Below are positions 17,351 to 25,458 of a stretch of 39,609 bases of DNA, piece after piece; within the stretch, counting starts at the first letter, position 1; each line of letters opens with the position of its first letter. The position numbers were made by a program, and so were the translations under genes. Below the pieces are notes generated by a model that was not told the origin of the DNA, made no database searches, and saw nothing but the letters and a program-made list of their open reading frames with translations. The stretch spans positions 1-39,609 of the forward strand of contig CAJQLF010000030.1 in assembly GCA_905479115.1 (NCBI GenBank), in the 5' to 3' direction. The stretch comes from an uncultured Flavobacteriales bacterium. Its GTDB lineage: Bacteria; Bacteroidota; Bacteroidia; Flavobacteriales_D; Sanyastnellaceae.

Positions 17351-18253
17351 TCACCCCCACAAGTGGGCGGCGATGCGAAAAGTATTGCAATGTGCTTCCA
17401 CGATTTGCCAAATATCCGGTGAATATCCCCCTCCCATGGTGCACACGACCGGAACATCATTGGCATGGCACCGTTGGAGGATTTGACGGTCGCGCTCCTT
17501 GCATCCCTCCTCCGACACACTGAGTCGCCCCAATTTATCGCTCTCCAGAATATCGACTCCGCATTGATAAAATACCACATCCGGCTTCACCTCATCCAGC
17601 AGCCGCGGCCAGTGCTCCCCCATGGCCCGCAAATACGCTCCATCATCCGCACCATCGGACAACGCCACATCGACATCGCTTTGTTCCTTGTGCATTGGGT
17701 AATTTCCTGCACCGTGCATGGAAAAGGTCATCACCCGATCGTCGTTGGCGAACATGCTCGCTGTGCCATTGCCTTGATGAACATCCAGGTCCACCACCAG
17801 TGCACGTTGAATGTGTCCTTCATCCAGCAACGCTGTCGCTGCCAAGGCAATGTCATTCAGTAAACAAAATCCCTCGCCCCGGTCCCGATAAGCGTGATGG
17901 GTACCTCCGGCTACGTTCAATGCCACTCCGTGTTCTAATGCATATCGCGCACATTGAACTGTTCCGCCCATGATCATCACCTCCCGGTCCACCAATGCGG
18001 GAGACCACGGAAATCCCGTTCGACGCTCTTCTTGACGCGACAACGTGCCTTGGCATAGTTTATCCCAATAATGCGCATCATGAGCGCTCAATACCTGGCG
18101 GTCGGTAAGCGGGGTTGGTGAAAAAAACTGGGCTTCTTCAACCGTTCCTTCGTGCACCAATTGCTCGGGGATGCACGTGTATTTTTCCATGGGAAACCGA
18201 TGCCCATCCGGCAGCGGATGAGCATATTGGTCGTTCCATGCAATCCGTATCAT
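17351..18253 (-). CDS. Histone deacetylase family (acetylpolyamine/acuC-like) zinc hydrolase
   Basis: This 300-residue cytoplasmic enzyme has the HDAC superfamily signatures: 'LNVAGGTHHAYRDRGEGFC' with the His-His pair, 'ALVVDLDVHQGNGTA' with the Asp and His zinc ligands, 'YQCGVDILESDKLGRLS' with the third Asp ligand, and GGGY with the catalytic Tyr. Bacterial members remove acetyl groups from proteins, polyamines or other amides. The short form resembles the class IV-like branch. Its ATG overlaps the stop of the Kazal-inhibitor gene by 4 bases (ATGA), so the two are translationally coupled despite one product being secreted and the other cytoplasmic. Confidence 0.93.
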   Translation of the reverse strand: MIRIAWNDQYAHPLPDGHRFPMEKYTCIPEQLVHEGTVEEAQFFSPTPLTDRQVLSAHDAHYWDKLCQGTLSRQEERRTGFPWSPALVDREVMIMGGTVQCARYALEHGVALNVAGGTHHAYRDRGEGFCLLNDIALAATALLDEGHIQRALVVDLDVHQGNGTASMFANDDRVMTFSMHGAGNYPMHKEQSDVDVALSDGADDGAYLRAMGEHWPRLLDEVKPDVVFYQCGVDILESDKLGRLSVSEEGCKERDRQILQRCHANDVPVVCTMGGGYSPDIWQIVEAHCNTFRIAAHLWG

Positions 18254-19239
18254 TCCATAATAACCCGCCGACTCACCGCGTGTTCACCCTTTTGACTGAT
18301 GCGAACGATGTACATGCCCTTGGGCAATCCCGCAGGTAACGTCCAGGATTCCCCTGAAACCATGGATGCACGCGCCCATTGTTTTCCACTCAAGGTGCGC
18401 AATTCCAATTCCAACAAAATCCCTGCTGGAATGCCTTGAACGTGCAAGCGTCCTGAAGCGGGGTTCGGATAGAGCTGAACCGTTGCCTCTGGCATAAGGT
18501 CATTTACGGCGACGTTTTCGCACGGTCCCGGCGTCCATTGAGCAATGCCTCCCGTATACCAAGCCATGCACGAATTGGAGTACGTTACGCTATCGCAACC
18601 GCATACCGGATCTTCCACTTCAGGACACCCCATGTCGGGATTGATCCGCGCCTCATCATAACAATCTCCGGCACAAGCACCTTCTGCGTAGTCGCTCACA
18701 AAATCCACGTAGGTCGCCACGCACTCATTGAAATGCGTTAGGCTATCGCAGCCGCACACCGGAACGGGTGTAAACACATCGCAGTCGATGAGTTCATCGG
18801 CAAGGGAAGGGTCGATGCACTCACTCACCTCCACACAATTGGCCTGGCACGCTTCCATACTTTCAAACGAGTACGGGCTATAATCCACACCGTTGACGTC
18901 CCAACCGCAGCCAGATAAGTAGGTGCAACTGCCATTGAACATCACAACACCCATGGCCATATCGCACGCACCAAAATCGATGCCACCCAAGTCGAAACAG
19001 TCCATCGCTGTGCCCGTGCACTCTCCCATCACCCAGGTCGTCACCCCCCCAAAATTAACCGCTTCGCAATCGTTTCCATACGTCTCTCCATCGCATCCGC
19101 ACACAGGATTCCATAAGGCGGGACACATCACGTCGAGGTCAATCAGCGAGGAGTCGATGCACGACTGGGATGTTACAGCTCCGAAAGGCGTTAAGGCCAA
19201 TATCAACAGGAGCAAGCAAGGGGAAAAAGTGAAGTTCAT
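18250..19239 (-). CDS. Secreted Kazal-type protease inhibitor-like protein with T9SS sorting domain
   Basis: The start at 19239 gives a signal peptide (MNFTFSPCLLLLILALTPFGAVTSQ) and a 329-residue product; the upstream start at 19308 adds a charged leader that does not fit. Three Kazal-like units are seen at about 27-74 (NPVCGCDGETYGNDC), 141-189 (VPVCGCDSLTHFNEC) and 193-240 (DPVCGCDSVTYSNSC), each with the C-G-C-D...T..N.C core. Between the first two is another Cys-rich segment with 'SPYSFESMEACQANC'. Residues about 252-329 form a type A T9SS sorting domain (QLYPNPASGRLHV ... LPKGMYIVRIS). It is likely a surface-displayed serine-protease inhibitor that protects against host or competitor proteases. 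Inhibition is not shown by sequence alone. Confidence 0.85.
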   Translation of the reverse strand: MNFTFSPCLLLLILALTPFGAVTSQSCIDSSLIDLDVMCPALWNPVCGCDGETYGNDCEAVNFGGVTTWVMGECTGTAMDCFDLGGIDFGACDMAMGVVMFNGSCTYLSGCGWDVNGVDYSPYSFESMEACQANCVEVSECIDPSLADELIDCDVFTPVPVCGCDSLTHFNECVATYVDFVSDYAEGACAGDCYDEARINPDMGCPEVEDPVCGCDSVTYSNSCMAWYTGGIAQWTPGPCENVAVNDLMPEATVQLYPNPASGRLHVQGIPAGILLELELRTLSGKQWARASMVSGESWTLPAGLPKGMYIVRISQKGEHAVSRRVIME

Positions 19240-19304
19240 TTGGATATGTTTGAAGTGGTCGAATACGTGAACAACTCGTTGCCGTGAAATTTGGTTGATC
19301 ACTT

Positions 19305-20015
19305 TCATCTTTTTGAGTGAGGCAATTTGTTTTCATTCTTTATATCACGGGCCATCTTTTCGATGGCTCTCTGCGTAGCATCCGTTATTTCATTGATGCT
19401 TTCATCTTTGAAATAGAGCGCCTCACCCAGCACCAAGGTACCCCCAAATGGAACAATCATCGTCCTGCCCTTGGGCAAGTTTCGGTACAACCCATCGAGG
19501 TAGACGGGGATCACGGGGATCCCTGGATGACGAGAGGCCAAATGCCCAACGCCACGCTTGAAATCCGCCATCAATCCCGGAACCCCTCTCGTGCCTTCTG
19601 GAAACAAAATCAGGCTATGACCTGCTTGGAGCATCGCATCGAGCAACTTAATAGGATCCACATCACGGCCGTCTTTGGTCCGCGAAATCAGCACTGCATT
19701 GACCAGGTTTTGCATGCTCCATTTGCGAAAACCTGAAGTACCAAAAAAGTCCTGGGCTGCAACGGAATGAGTCAAGTGAATCCGATGGGATGGCACAATG
19801 GTCATCAAAGACATGGCGTCCAAATGGCTGTTGTGGTTTGAAATGTAAATGACCGGTCCGTCAGGATGGGTTTTCGCGCCCCGAACATAGCGGAGTCCGA
19901 TGACCAAGCCAAACACCGTGCGCCAAAACACTTTATAGAGCAGCCAAAGCAGCCAGCGCCTCCCGTTGGGAACATGCGCTTGGAAGAGCTCGGCGTCAAT
20001 GTGGTCTTGGGTCAT
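19305..20015 (-). CDS. PlsC-type lysophospholipid acyltransferase
   Basis: This 236-residue membrane-associated acyltransferase carries the PlsC family motifs: 'YISNHNSHLDAMSL' (NHxxxxD, catalytic His61 and Asp66), 'RKWSMQNLVNAVLISR' (motif II region), LILFPEGTRG (motif III) and 'IPVIPVYLDGL' (motif IV). A hydrophobic N-terminal region (about 21-42) should dock it to the inner membrane. It would acylate a lysophosphatidic acid or a related acceptor. The gene follows the YnbB-like cytidylyltransferase by 9 bases, which suggests it supplies phosphatidic acid to that enzyme in a dedicated lipid module. Confidence 0.92.
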   Translation of the reverse strand: MTQDHIDAELFQAHVPNGRRWLLWLLYKVFWRTVFGLVIGLRYVRGAKTHPDGPVIYISNHNSHLDAMSLMTIVPSHRIHLTHSVAAQDFFGTSGFRKWSMQNLVNAVLISRTKDGRDVDPIKLLDAMLQAGHSLILFPEGTRGVPGLMADFKRGVGHLASRHPGIPVIPVYLDGLYRNLPKGRTMIVPFGGTLVLGEALYFKDESINEITDATQRAIEKMARDIKNENKLPHSKR

Positions 20016-20024
20016 CTTCCAAAG

Positions 20025-20987
20025 TTAACCCGCGCTGGTGACCCCAAAAAAGTAGATGAGGTGAAAAAACGGTGCCGCAGCGGCTGAAAAGCCATCGAGC
20101 CGATCGAGGTAACCTCCATGCCCCGGAATCGCGTTGCCCGAATTCTTAATACCAATGTCTCGCTTCATGCCTGATGCAATAGCGTCTCCCATGAAGCCTG
20201 CTACAGCCACGCAACATCCGGTCAAGGCCGCCTGCCAAGGTTCCAGCGGCGTTAAGAACCTCAAGCTCACTGCGATTAAGGTGGTTGACAGGACTCCACC
20301 AATGAGGCCCTCCCATGTTTTATTGGGGCTGACCCGTGGAAGGACCGCGTGCTGCCCCAGGGTTTTGCCCCAAGCAAATTGGAGCACGTCATTGATGCCC
20401 ACCAAGAAAATTAAGTACAACAGCAGCCCCTGCGGCCCGGCTGTGAATCCCGGGATTTCCGGAAGCTGGAACAACAGCGCCAAATGACTCATGCCATAGA
20501 CCCACGCCACAAGCGAATATGGCATCAACGAAATCGATCGCACGATGCCTTCGGTTTCCCCCCGTGTGACCAGCACAAATGGAATCACCACAAACATGAA
20601 CACCGGAATGAATGCCAAAAACAACGTCGTCATGCCCAAATAAGCCAGGGTGTACTGCACCGGAATAACGGCGTAACAAAGAAGCACCACATTGCGCTCG
20701 CGCGAGTCCAACTTCAACAGGGGATACATCTCCCTGAGCAAGGCAAAACTCAAAAAAGCCAATCCCACATGGGTAATAATCGGATGAGCCACCGTTGTCA
20801 ATATGAAGCACGCGCACATGATCCACCAGCTCCGTGTCCTCACTTGGAGCTCTTTTACCAACTTTCCGGGTTTGAGCCGGTGCCAAATGAACCAAGCCGT
20901 TGAGCTAAAAACAAGGATGCACAAAATGATGAAGATGACCCATTGGATCTCTGCAATCATCTCCCAGGATTCAATTAATTTATTCAT
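20025..20987 (-). CDS. Phosphatidate cytidylyltransferase (CdsA family, YnbB-like)
   Basis: This is a 320-residue membrane protein with about eight hydrophobic segments. The C-terminus carries the CdsA signature as 'SGMKRDIGIKNSGNAIPGHGGYLDRLDG' split across residues about 275-302, and 'VSPNKTWEGLIGG' precedes it. CdsA enzymes make CDP-diacylglycerol from CTP and phosphatidate. The N-terminus with 'VRTRSWWIMCACF' matches, from memory, E. coli YnbB, a second CdsA-like protein encoded next to ynbA, rather than housekeeping CdsA. The start at 20987 overlaps the end of the CDP-alcohol transferase gene by 8 bases (ATGAATAA). Confidence 0.88.
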   Translation of the reverse strand: MNKLIESWEMIAEIQWVIFIILCILVFSSTAWFIWHRLKPGKLVKELQVRTRSWWIMCACFILTTVAHPIITHVGLAFLSFALLREMYPLLKLDSRERNVVLLCYAVIPVQYTLAYLGMTTLFLAFIPVFMFVVIPFVLVTRGETEGIVRSISLMPYSLVAWVYGMSHLALLFQLPEIPGFTAGPQGLLLYLIFLVGINDVLQFAWGKTLGQHAVLPRVSPNKTWEGLIGGVLSTTLIAVSLRFLTPLEPWQAALTGCCVAVAGFMGDAIASGMKRDIGIKNSGNAIPGHGGYLDRLDGFSAAAAPFFHLIYFFGVTSAG

Positions 20988-21588
20988 CAGAAATCGTTTT
21001 TTGAATTCGACGCCAGGTACTCCAACCGAGGCACGCCAACACACCATATACGACGGGCATTAAAACCGCTGTGACGTTGAGGCCTAACCCGAGGCTAATG
21101 CACAAAACGCCCCACACCAGCGTGCGGTCACTTTTTCCCATCGGCCCTTCATACCTGCGCTGGGTCCCAAGTGAACTGCCGAGCACACCCGCGTATTCAT
21201 TAACCACCGACAACCAAAGCAAAGCTCCCACCCACCCCGCATGCATTCCGGGCATCAAGGCCAATGGCCACATGACCAGCGCATCGCTCACGACATCCCC
21301 CAACTCATTCAGTACAGCACCCGACTTGGATGTCATGCCGTGCTCTCTGGCCATCATGCCATCGAGAGCATTCAACATCATCCGCACCAACAACCCCAAC
21401 ACCACCGCCCAACACCACCGTGGATCTGACAGCCCTTGGACAAAGGCTGCGCCAAGCCCTGCGGAAAGAGCAATCGCCATCCAGGTCAACCCATTGGGCG
21501 TTACACCCCATCGCCGAAGTGTCTCCATCGCGGGGGTCAAGAGCCGTTGAAAAGCTGGCTTCAAATCATACGTAGTAGGAACTTTCAT
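20980..21588 (-). CDS. CDP-alcohol phosphatidyltransferase (YnbA-like)
   Basis: The start at 21588 lies one base after the stop of the upstream gene and gives MKVPTTYDLKPAFQRLLTP, which aligns with the start of E. coli YnbA as I remember it; the longer frame from 21639 would overlap that gene by 50 bases. The 202-residue protein has about five membrane segments. The family motif is D-x2-D-G-x2-A-R-x8-G-x3-D-x3-D. Here it reads NALDGMMAR...G...N...D, with Asn73 and Asn94 in place of two of the four metal-binding Asp residues (Asp76, Arg81, Gly90, Asp98 kept; an extra Asp102). YnbA appears to share these changes, so this is probably a subfamily trait. The head-group alcohol is unknown. Confidence 0.85.
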   Translation of the reverse strand: MKVPTTYDLKPAFQRLLTPAMETLRRWGVTPNGLTWMAIALSAGLGAAFVQGLSDPRWCWAVVLGLLVRMMLNALDGMMAREHGMTSKSGAVLNELGDVVSDALVMWPLALMPGMHAGWVGALLWLSVVNEYAGVLGSSLGTQRRYEGPMGKSDRTLVWGVLCISLGLGLNVTAVLMPVVYGVLACLGWSTWRRIQKTISDE

Positions 21589-21589
21589 G

Positions 21590-22402
21590 TTAGCGAACAA
21601 CTTCAGGAATCGGCAGCGATTTATCAAAGGGGTTGTCATTCAACCGCTCGCGCGGCAGGTCTGCAGGAAAAGCACCATGCTCAAAGAAATGCAAGCAAGG
21701 CTCACCCAAAATATCCCACCGGATGTACATCATATCGTGATCTAACGGCAGATGGAACGCATCGGCCGCCAAAGGATCAATTTTCTGCCAATTGTACTCC
21801 AGTGGCCCCATAGCTCGAGCCTCTGACTCCAAAATCCGCATAATTGACGTGGCTCGGTTCTCAACCATTAAACCTCTCAACACATGAGCAGCGGGCGGTT
21901 CGGGCCAATCAACATTGCTCAAATCTCGCAAGACAGGTCCCAATGCCAACACACCAACCATCGGAAATCGGTCCATTACCGCTCGAGGTGCGCGCTCCTG
22001 CGTCGGACTCCGGTCGTAGATCACCTGAGATAAATTAGGCAACCCCCATTCCGCCACATACGTGTGCATGAGATACGCACCGGCGATGTAACAAATGGCC
22101 TTTACCTCGGCGTAATCCTCCAAATGGTATTCCTGAGCAAATTCCCGCAGCGCAGCAGAGCTATCGTCCAGTGATTTGCGCAGCAAAACATCCGGAATTA
22201 AGACGTCCATTCCTTTATCTTCCCAAAACGCCATTTGAGCCTTACAACCTGATTTTGATCCTCCAAAACCGTTGAAAATGACCAAGGCTGTTTTTTCGGA
22301 AATAGGCTTTTCCGCATTGATGTTTACCCAATCTTTTGCGCTCGCGTGAGCCTGCATCCAAAAGATCAATGCAAAAAAGAGAAGTTTGAGGGTTACACGC
22401 AT
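21590..22402 (-). CDS. Exported alpha/beta-hydrolase-like protein lacking a Ser nucleophile
   Basis: The 270-residue product has a signal peptide (MRVTLKLLFFALIFWMQAHASA). The rest has alpha/beta-hydrolase flavour: 'KTALVIFNGFGGSKSGC' (oxyanion-type loop), 'MAFWEDKGMDVLIPD', a nucleophile-elbow position reading 'AICYIAGAYLMHTY' and a late 'LPLDHDMMYIRWD' where a catalytic His could lie. The elbow has Ile where G-x-S-x-G would have Ser (residues 104-108, CYIAG), so it is either inactive, works by another residue, or belongs to a different fold. It heads the lipid module (stop at 21590, next start at 21588), suggesting a periplasmic role linked to the same lipid. Confidence 0.6.
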   Translation of the reverse strand: MRVTLKLLFFALIFWMQAHASAKDWVNINAEKPISEKTALVIFNGFGGSKSGCKAQMAFWEDKGMDVLIPDVLLRKSLDDSSAALREFAQEYHLEDYAEVKAICYIAGAYLMHTYVAEWGLPNLSQVIYDRSPTQERAPRAVMDRFPMVGVLALGPVLRDLSNVDWPEPPAAHVLRGLMVENRATSIMRILESEARAMGPLEYNWQKIDPLAADAFHLPLDHDMMYIRWDILGEPCLHFFEHGAFPADLPRERLNDNPFDKSLPIPEVVR

Positions 22403-24873: not shown

Positions 24874-25458
24874 TCAATTTACCGTATACACCCAAAGCGG
24901 GGGAAGATTGAACCAGACACCTTTGACAAGACGGAAAGAAAACGCCCGGAAGTGCGGCTTCATTAAAAATGGAAAGTAGGTAAACCAACGAAATACAGCT
25001 CCCTGCTCCGTTTGAGCGAGCAGCGAAGCGTACAGCTTGTCTTGAACGGTTTTTGGCAACGTAAAGGGCAAGCCTGAAACAACCAAATCAGCCTTCGGCC
25101 AATTTCGCGTTTTCATTTGTTCCTCGAAATCATCAGCACTGCCTTCAATTATTTCAAACCGGTCACCAAAACGACGTTGCAGGGATGGGATATAGTCTGC
25201 ATTCAATTCAATGATGAGGACCTTACAATGGTGCGGTAAATTTGCATACAATTCCCTCGTAAAGGAACCCGTGCCTGGCCCCAGTTCAATGACGTATTCC
25301 ATCTTAGTCCAATCAACCCCTTCGAACATGCTGCGACTTGCTCGGCGGCTGCTCGGTAACACGCTGGCGTTTCGAATCGGATTTCGAATGAAGTTGCAGA
25401 AAAACTTCCAGTTTTGACGCTCATTTCTCCGTTGCACGACCAAATATAGGAACTTCAT
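24874..25458 (-). CDS. SAM-dependent methyltransferase, phospholipid N-methyltransferase (PmtA)-like
   Basis: This is a class I methyltransferase of 194 residues. The SAM site is 'YVIELGPGTGSFTREL', followed by 'VLIIELNADYIPSLQRRFG', 'EIIEGSADDFEE' and 'ADLVVSGLPFTLPKTVQDKL'. The N-terminal 'FCNFIRNPIRNASVLPSSRRASRSM' and the SGLPF motif are those of PmtA-type enzymes that methylate phosphatidylethanolamine, and differ from RsmA/KsgA, which has NxPY and is longer. It acts at the inner face of the cytoplasmic membrane. Its start is only 12 bases from the start of the divergent transporter gene, so at least one promoter must lie within coding DNA, or the start is further in. Confidence 0.78.
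   Translation of the reverse strand: MKFLYLVVQRRNERQNWKFFCNFIRNPIRNASVLPSSRRASRSMFEGVDWTKMEYVIELGPGTGSFTRELYANLPHHCKVLIIELNADYIPSLQRRFGDRFEIIEGSADDFEEQMKTRNWPKADLVVSGLPFTLPKTVQDKLYASLLAQTEQGAVFRWFTYFPFLMKPHFRAFSFRLVKGVWFNLPPLWVYTVN

Follow-up and report, generated by a model that had tools for sequence, protein, structure and literature searches.

Does a compact run of lipid genes still make a lipid when its central transferase has lost half of its metal-binding aspartates? This question is raised by the genome of an uncultured Flavobacteriales bacterium (GCA_905479115.1), in a stretch of 39,609 nucleotides, hereafter the window, which is contig CAJQLF010000030.1 (C30) in an assembly of 69 contigs that totals 2.27 Mb and has a completeness of 99.53%. 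Four minus-strand genes, running from 22402 to 19305, encode a hydrolase-like protein that we name HydW, a YnbA-like cytidine diphosphate (CDP)-alcohol phosphotransferase-fold protein, a YnbB-like paralogue of CDP-diacylglycerol synthase, and a PlsC-type acyltransferase. This extra set of membrane-lipid genes is real and widespread, and its core is shared with the ynbA and ynbB genes of E. coli. Its YnbA carries asparagine in place of two of the four aspartates that define its enzyme family.

The four genes are tightly coupled, as the first-pass annotation of this DNA had described, and its junctions are exact in the sequence. The hydW stop codon (TAA) ends at 21590 and the ynbA ATG lies at 21588, a gap of 1 base; the ynbB ATG (20987) precedes the end of the ynbA stop (20980), an overlap of 8 bases; and 9 bases separate the end of the ynbB stop (20025) from the plsC ATG (20015). 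The longest open reading frames (ORFs) of ynbA and ynbB start at 21639 and 21047, upstream of their likely true starts. As had been proposed, the two genes in the middle are genuine relatives of ynbA and ynbB, by alignment with the E. coli proteins (each 33% identical to its window counterpart) and by recurrent synteny.

CDP-alcohol phosphotransferases make many phospholipid head groups, and a two-metal, four-aspartate site is taken as the mark of the family. The signature reads DxxDGxxAR(x7-8)GxxxDxxxD (PMC9385802), and its four aspartates, D1 to D4, bind the metals of MtPgsA1 as D68, D71, D89 and D93 (PMC6506517; here and throughout, literature statements reflect the cited passages of each paper). 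The window YnbA departs from this signature, with asparagine at D1 (N73) and D3 (N94) and aspartate retained at D2 (D76) and D4 (D98). A HMMER alignment of the YnbA profile with MtPgsA1 gives the same picture, Asn at places one and three and Asp at two and four. MtPgsA1 and RsPIPS, both members of PF01066, thus share with YnbA the DGxxAR motif, D2 and D4, and differ from it in having Asp at D1 and D3 (D68, D89). E. coli YnbA carries the same double-asparagine (N/N) site in a pairwise alignment, and E. coli PgsA has aspartate at both places (D/D). We found no earlier mention of the N/N site of YnbA in open-licence papers. The site is new in this analysis, while the module itself is a variant of the ynbAB kind.

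The N/N site recurs in each large sample of YnbA that was scored. A one-genome-per-species scan returned at least 587 relatives, and all 80 loci kept from it are N/N; one of the two peptide patterns used required Asn at D1, so constancy is partly built in at D1 and not at D3. The profile searches, which covered 198 Bacteroidota and 299 Pseudomonadota genomes, did not require Asn, but their profile was built from N/N rows. Among the Pseudomonadota, the profile had matches at E 1e-20 in 32 of the 299 genomes, at most 10 candidates per genome were scored and 30 loci were fetched. All 28 matches above 198 bits are N/N, and two matches at 76-78 bits fall outside the scored set. Among 20 loci from relatives, 19 are N/N, the window's own copy among them, and the twentieth is a fragment left unscored. 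Thirty PF01066 loci from 12 Bacteroidota genomes comprise 24 D/D proteins, five N/N YnbA proteins and one left unscored (L118); the YnbA match of genome G143 had no locus in this set.

Conservation extends well beyond the two asparagines. A 52-row YnbA alignment contains 30 invariant columns, 12 of them in the motif block R69-D102, 11 in E131-R155 and 7 in the N-terminal part; the invariant residues include R69, M70, N73, A74, D76, G77, A80, G90, N94, E95, D98, D102, E131 and the GPxGKSDR block. Compared with L163, the closest of the relatives fetched, the window YnbA shows a nonsynonymous divergence (dN) of 0.10 and a synonymous divergence (dS) of about 2, which is near saturation; across loci of the window's genus, dN ranges from 0.10 to 0.36, and dS is at least 1.9 or too high to compute. 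YnbA is therefore under purifying selection, and selection and invariance together are unlike what a decaying or unused site would be expected to show. In a phylogenetic tree, a clade of YnbA and its two nearest neighbours (support 98/92) stands separate from the PgsA and PssA types, on long branches. Homology, the N/N site, the GPxGKSDR block and linkage to ynbB all place the window protein in the YnbA family (b1408). A more distant YnbA relative from the Pseudomonadota sample (L158:1468-2787, 82 bits) also has Asn at D1 and D3 (NLLDG...LYNEF) and a different acceptor block (GPMAKQHR); it perhaps represents a sister family.

By profile score and by fold, YnbA belongs to PF01066. The best Foldseek matches to its predicted model (mean predicted local distance difference test score, pLDDT, 88.6) are phosphatidylinositol phosphate (PIP) synthases, with template modelling (TM) scores up to 0.77, so YnbA might make PIP as its closest structural relatives do. 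The best NCBIfam models point the same way, archaetidylinositol phosphate synthase and PIP synthase scoring 72.8 and 48 for the window protein and 75.1 and 47.3 for E. coli YnbA. All of these lie far below the curated cut-offs of 180 and 170, and the inositol-1-phosphate synthase family PF01658 was found neither in the window's genome nor in the YnbA-bearing E. coli control. We disfavour PIP as the product and regard it as very improbable.

The module is an addition to a genome that holds other copies of its lipid enzymes. A second CdsA-family gene (216 aa, PF01148) lies on contig C8, and a PssA-like transferase with all four aspartates on C26. The label PssA-like follows its best NCBIfam model, pssA, which it matches at 65.4 bits, below the cut-off of 107. 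There are four further PlsC-family genes, one of which (L006) exceeds the TIGR00530 cut-off (115.3 against 102.95). These copies rule out a housekeeping operon and bear out the accessory status that the first-pass annotation had suggested. Each of 14 YnbA-bearing genomes examined, drawn from several phyla, encodes between two and seven PF01066 proteins. Among 60 relatives, the window's genus has YnbA in 17 of its 22 genomes (the window's own included), other genera of the family in one of 15 and other families of the order in two of 23; four of the five genus genomes without it are 63-87% complete. Across the phylum, 51 of the 198 Bacteroidota genomes matched the profile at E 1e-5. Six have a match of YnbA strength (263-271 bits); the next score is 51, and matches at or below it were taken as other CDP-alcohol phosphotransferases. 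YnbA is thus steady within the genus and patchy beyond it.

One might suppose that YnbA replaces a missing PgsA and supplies phosphatidylglycerol phosphate for bulk anionic lipid, since a PF01066 search of the window's genome returned only two proteins, the PssA-like one and YnbA, in a genome that nevertheless encodes phospholipase D (PLD)-domain proteins: a 527-aa open frame (G000:C25:9531-10691) has two PLD domains, detected as two PF13091 matches, as in cardiolipin synthases. Against this, two genomes without YnbA, G045 from the same family and G007 from the same class, hold a single PF01066 protein, a PssA-like one (100.5 and 102.7 bits, cut-off 107), so neither PgsA nor YnbA is indispensable. 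Moreover, genome G100 of group f22 has a PgsA above cut-off (114.8 against 109.1) in addition to YnbA, and E. coli is annotated with both. A stand-in for PgsA is accordingly disfavoured, and we consider it improbable.

The two partner enzymes retain the marks of their families. YnbB falls in the CDP-diacylglycerol synthase family PF01148 by its CTP_transf_1 profile and signature, and shares with CdsA the C-terminal CDS domain and the GHGGxxDRxD block; the N-terminal halves of the two are reported not to be homologous (PMC6362211, PMC7018664). In the KR....KD signature, KN replaces KD in the window and in L016-L020, 76 others have KD and three fragments lack the motif; in the 20 loci from relatives, a pattern that left this place open matched 17 times, with KN. 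Against the CdsA equivalog model NF008635 (cut-off 385), the window YnbB scores 100.6, the genome's other CdsA-family protein 107.3 and E. coli YnbB 109.9. As all three fall below the cut-off, this model cannot separate CdsA from YnbB here. PlsC has the NHNSHLD and FPEG motifs in its translation and matches PF01553, and its TIGR00530 score (57.1 against 102.95) leaves the enzyme's substrate unfixed.

Work on the E. coli ynb genes offers some guide to the product. The first-pass annotation had called the product lipid of the YnbA and YnbB pair not established. This holds for YnbA; for YnbB, formation of CDP-diacylglycerol in vitro has been described (PMC7018664), and its overproduction raises the glycolipid MPIase (PMC6362211, PMC7018664). 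A ynbB knockout leaves the MPIase level almost unchanged (PMC6362211). The gene was among five of interest in a transposon screen of cells with only phosphoglyceride-linked enterobacterial common antigen, and is described there as dispensable for synthesis of that antigen (PMC8609368). A study on an acid-protective peptide cites BglJ-RcsB as an activator of E. coli ynbA and saw the gene rise 3-fold (PMC12871917); ynbA is also up under a membrane-active peptide (PMC12811501). Its older annotation as a cholinephosphotransferase was withdrawn from EcoCyc (PMC3781023).

The effect of YnbB on MPIase suggests another role, in which YnbA would use a sugar 1-phosphate, for instance N-acetylglucosamine (GlcNAc)-1-phosphate, as acceptor of the phosphatidyl group. 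The result would be a glycolipid of the MPIase type linked through diacylglycerol pyrophosphate, with CdsA and YnbB merely supplying CDP-diacylglycerol. An assay in which E. coli membranes form GlcNAc-pyrophosphate-diacylglycerol from phosphatidic acid, cytidine triphosphate and GlcNAc-phosphate depends on GlcNAc-phosphate (PMC6362211, PMC10881803), and a phosphate nucleophile, needing no general base, could tolerate an altered metal site. Set against this are the near-unchanged MPIase level of the ynbB knockout and the viable genome-reduced E. coli strain DGF-298, for which ynbABCD is listed as deleted (PMC10652928), although MPIase is reported as essential (PMC6362211). These two observations imply that in E. 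coli YnbA is at most a side route to MPIase, and we judge such a product unlikely.

The gene neighbourhood of ynbA is consistent in its core and variable around it. By our phylum assignments, the 80 loci span Bacteroidota, Pseudomonadota, Cyanobacteriota, Bacillota, Planctomycetota, Acidobacteriota, Gemmatimonadota, Verrucomicrobiota and Campylobacterota; the nearest fetched ones come from Bacteroidetes and Flavobacteriales metagenome assemblies. We scored their neighbours with seed sequences taken from the window itself and from E. coli, Pseudanabaena, Moraxella and Fusobacterium. In 78 of the 80 loci a ynbB gene lies no more than 6.5 kb from ynbA, and in 60 no more than 150 bases; the two misses are a locus that stops at a contig end (L061) and one with no ynbB within 7 kb on either side (L051). 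A plsC gene is near in 61 of 80, and a patatin gene together with a short-chain dehydrogenase/reductase (SDR) gene in 13; the two sets never occur together (0 of 80). The YnbC-type methyltransferase was found in 30 of 80 loci, the hydrolase half of YnbC in 27 and HydW in 17. PAP2 (26 of 80) and dual-specificity phosphatase (14 of 80) counts may be low, as few seeds were used. The order hydW-ynbA-ynbB-plsC recurs in 14 Bacteroidota loci. Identical gene order in distant phyla, combined with the low dN of YnbA at near-saturated dS, argues that the module is not a chance assembly.

Two known gene sets illustrate this variation. E. coli K-12 ynbABCD (b1408-b1411) has ynbA followed by ynbB, with a 1-base overlap, and its YnbA shares with the window protein the N/N site and the RM..NA.DG and GPxGKSDR blocks. 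Where the window has plsC and hydW, E. coli instead has ynbC (an alpha/beta hydrolase fused to Methyltransf_20) and ynbD (PAP2-like plus dual-specificity phosphatase); no Methyltransf_20 match was found in the window's genome. Plasmid ABRG53d of Pseudanabaena has the ynbA-ynbB-plsC order of the window, annotated as CDP-alcohol phosphatidyltransferase, phosphatidate cytidylyltransferase and lysophospholipid acyltransferase, but it lacks HydW, ends in a methyltransferase gene and is plasmid-borne.

Several further features were seen in these settings. Three loci (L026, L027, L030), from Balneola and Saprospiraceae assemblies, have hydW after plsC with a small membrane-protein gene in between (L026:9196-9543, L027:7396-7743, L030:9196-9543). 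Its 115-aa product resembles a small SMR/EamA-type transporter by eye, has no Pfam match in the L026 copy, and could be a flippase for the product. A gene of about 150 aa lies between a ynbD-like gene and plsC in Pseudomonas (L058:10937-11392, L073:10687-11148, L088:10778-11233), and the L058 copy has no Pfam match. In Moraxella, ynbA is in one reading frame with the first part of the hydrolase gene (L015:5998-7296). YnbA-like matches (below 60% identity) occur in 130 plasmid records, 93 of them from Rhizobium and 35 typed as conjugative. A phage origin was rejected: a tblastn search with E. coli YnbA gave zero matches in 50,697 phage records.

What could such a module do? We think it somewhat more probable than otherwise that it is an accessory ynbA-ynbB-plsC phosphatidyl-transfer operon that makes a minor envelope lipid, with YnbA active but re-wired. 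PlsC would acylate lysophosphatidate, YnbB would convert the resulting phosphatidate to CDP-diacylglycerol reserved for this branch, YnbA would move the phosphatidyl group onto a dedicated acceptor to give the lipid, and HydW may bind or handle it. In MjPSS, Asp41 (D1) and Asp62 (D3) contact both metals, while Asp44 (D2) contacts calcium and Asp66 (D4) magnesium (PMC8633023). The residues lost from YnbA are thus the metal-joining pair, and the negative charge that went with them matches that of a single divalent ion, which makes a one-metal transferase, perhaps aided by the invariant Arg69, the most economical active version. The retained D2 would be the nucleotide-side ligand and D4 would be the proposed base. 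The first-pass annotation had counted every step from lysophosphatidate to head-group transfer as present. That presumes a normal transferase, which a YnbA short of two metal-binding aspartates may not be. Its reading of an accessory lipid module is right, its chemistry was too simple, and the module may make the special phospholipid that it proposed as product.

A broader proposal, which we offer tentatively and consider doubtful, is that YnbA represents a branch of the CDP-alcohol phosphotransferases without metal-bridging carboxylates. Its members would use one metal, with the invariant Arg and a conserved Asn-Glu pair instead, and an anionic phosphate acceptor. The product would be a minor envelope lipid of a new class, made in E. 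coli and in at least eight phyla from varied gene neighbourhoods: PlsC with or without HydW; patatin and SDR; or hydrolase, methyltransferase and phosphatase.

Several observations count against an active YnbA or a general benefit of the module. In MjPSS, all tested Ser and Asn changes lowered or abolished activity; Mg2+ restored part of it for some of them but did not rescue D62N, at D3 (PMC8633023). The N/N site could therefore mean that YnbA has no transferase activity, and we found no biochemistry of any YnbA. Two Pseudomonadota copies are irregular: L156, a strong match, has an internal stop, and L157:1450-2118, a relative at 163 bits, has Ala at D1 and Asn at D3. L157 nests within normal YnbA in the tree, for which reason the table of tree groups needs two changes for YnbA, and it is perhaps a decaying copy. 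E. coli YnbB is reported as unable to replace CdsA (PMC6362211, PMC7018664). YnbA-strength matches are absent from 192 of the 198 sampled Bacteroidota and from G527, which belongs to the genus of the window and is 99% complete. Together with the deletion in DGF-298, these absences imply that any benefit is conditional.

The main rival follows from the same site: YnbA would be a pseudo-transferase that binds CDP-diacylglycerol without turnover and serves YnbB as partner or regulator. The asparagines in all 80 loci, the harm that such residues do to MjPSS, and the tight linkage of ynbB to ynbA in 60 of 80 would all fit such a role. However, all 52 aligned rows keep D2, D4 and the GPxGKSDR block unchanged, where a dead enzyme would be expected to show relaxation, and in the rest of the 80 loci the two genes lie further apart. 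We regard a catalytically silent YnbA as unlikely, though a little less so than a route to MPIase.

The product of the first gene, HydW, is also an altered member of an enzyme fold. Its AlphaFold2 model (pLDDT 92.5) has an N-terminal helix at residues 2-18, and HydW is probably exported, judging from its sequence. Among the 50 structural matches listed, alpha/beta hydrolases reach Z 13.4-14.9 over 182-220 residues, placing the predicted model in this fold. GxSxG is the nucleophile-serine motif of serine hydrolases. In HydW the corresponding residue is Ile106, which aligns with the serine of GNSLG in 5jd6 (a weak match, E 0.008) and is invariant in 18 of 18 members, as are R131, S132, Q135, E136, R137, H222 and D223. 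HydW thus keeps His222-Asp223 and most of a DRSPxQERA block. Because the pattern used for the 20 loci from relatives was fixed at Ile, the 17 matches that it gave do not test this position openly; the 18-member alignment does. The exported hydrolase-like protein of the first-pass annotation therefore stands as to predicted fold and falls short as to the serine nucleophile; HydW is either a lipid-binding hydrolase relative or a hydrolase that uses another nucleophile. The window copy has no Pfam match, and none of the 18 members has one above cut-off. Assignment to a named hydrolase family was rejected, as the six Pfam matches are at chance level (one member each, E 0.04-0.15) and only two are to hydrolase families. 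HydW occurs in two of the 198 Bacteroidota genomes, adjoining ynbA in both.

The features of the locus are collected below. Downstream, genes for a Kazal-domain protein and a histone-deacetylase-like protein trail plsC (17351-19308), their longest ORFs overlapping by 4 bases; that of the Kazal gene also overlaps the plsC stop by 4 bases. The Kazal gene adjoins plsC in L016 too, and the deacetylase gene is near in L016 and L019. Upstream of the module, past one opposite-strand gene and on the module's own strand, lies a small methyltransferase gene (24874-25458; resembling Methyltransf_25 and RrnaAD, under their cut-offs), which might encode a phospholipid N-methyltransferase.

Table. Genes of the lipid module and its downstream neighbours in the window.
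Feature	Coordinates	Strand	Basis
HydW (name coined in this analysis), probably exported alpha/beta-hydrolase-fold protein, 270 aa	21590..22402	-	model and alignment
YnbA-like CDP-alcohol phosphotransferase-fold protein, 202 aa	20980..21588	-	PF01066, 37.2 bits (cut-off 22)
YnbB-like CDP-diacylglycerol synthase paralogue, 320 aa	20025..20987	-	PF01148, 179 bits (cut-off 24)
PlsC-type acyltransferase, 236 aa	19305..20015	-	PF01553, 74.2 bits (cut-off 23)
Kazal-domain gene, downstream neighbour outside the core	18250..19308	-	PF00050/PF07648
Histone-deacetylase-like gene, downstream neighbour outside the core	17351..18253	-	PF00850, 206.6 bits

The double Asp-to-Asn site is the part of this module most worth pursuing. 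A conserved N/N branch that extends across phyla and includes E. coli would be either a second catalytic solution within the family or a class of pseudo-transferases tied to a CDP-diacylglycerol synthase. The effect of YnbB on MPIase is the only biochemical lead that we found to the function of ynbABCD, and either answer would open that function to study.

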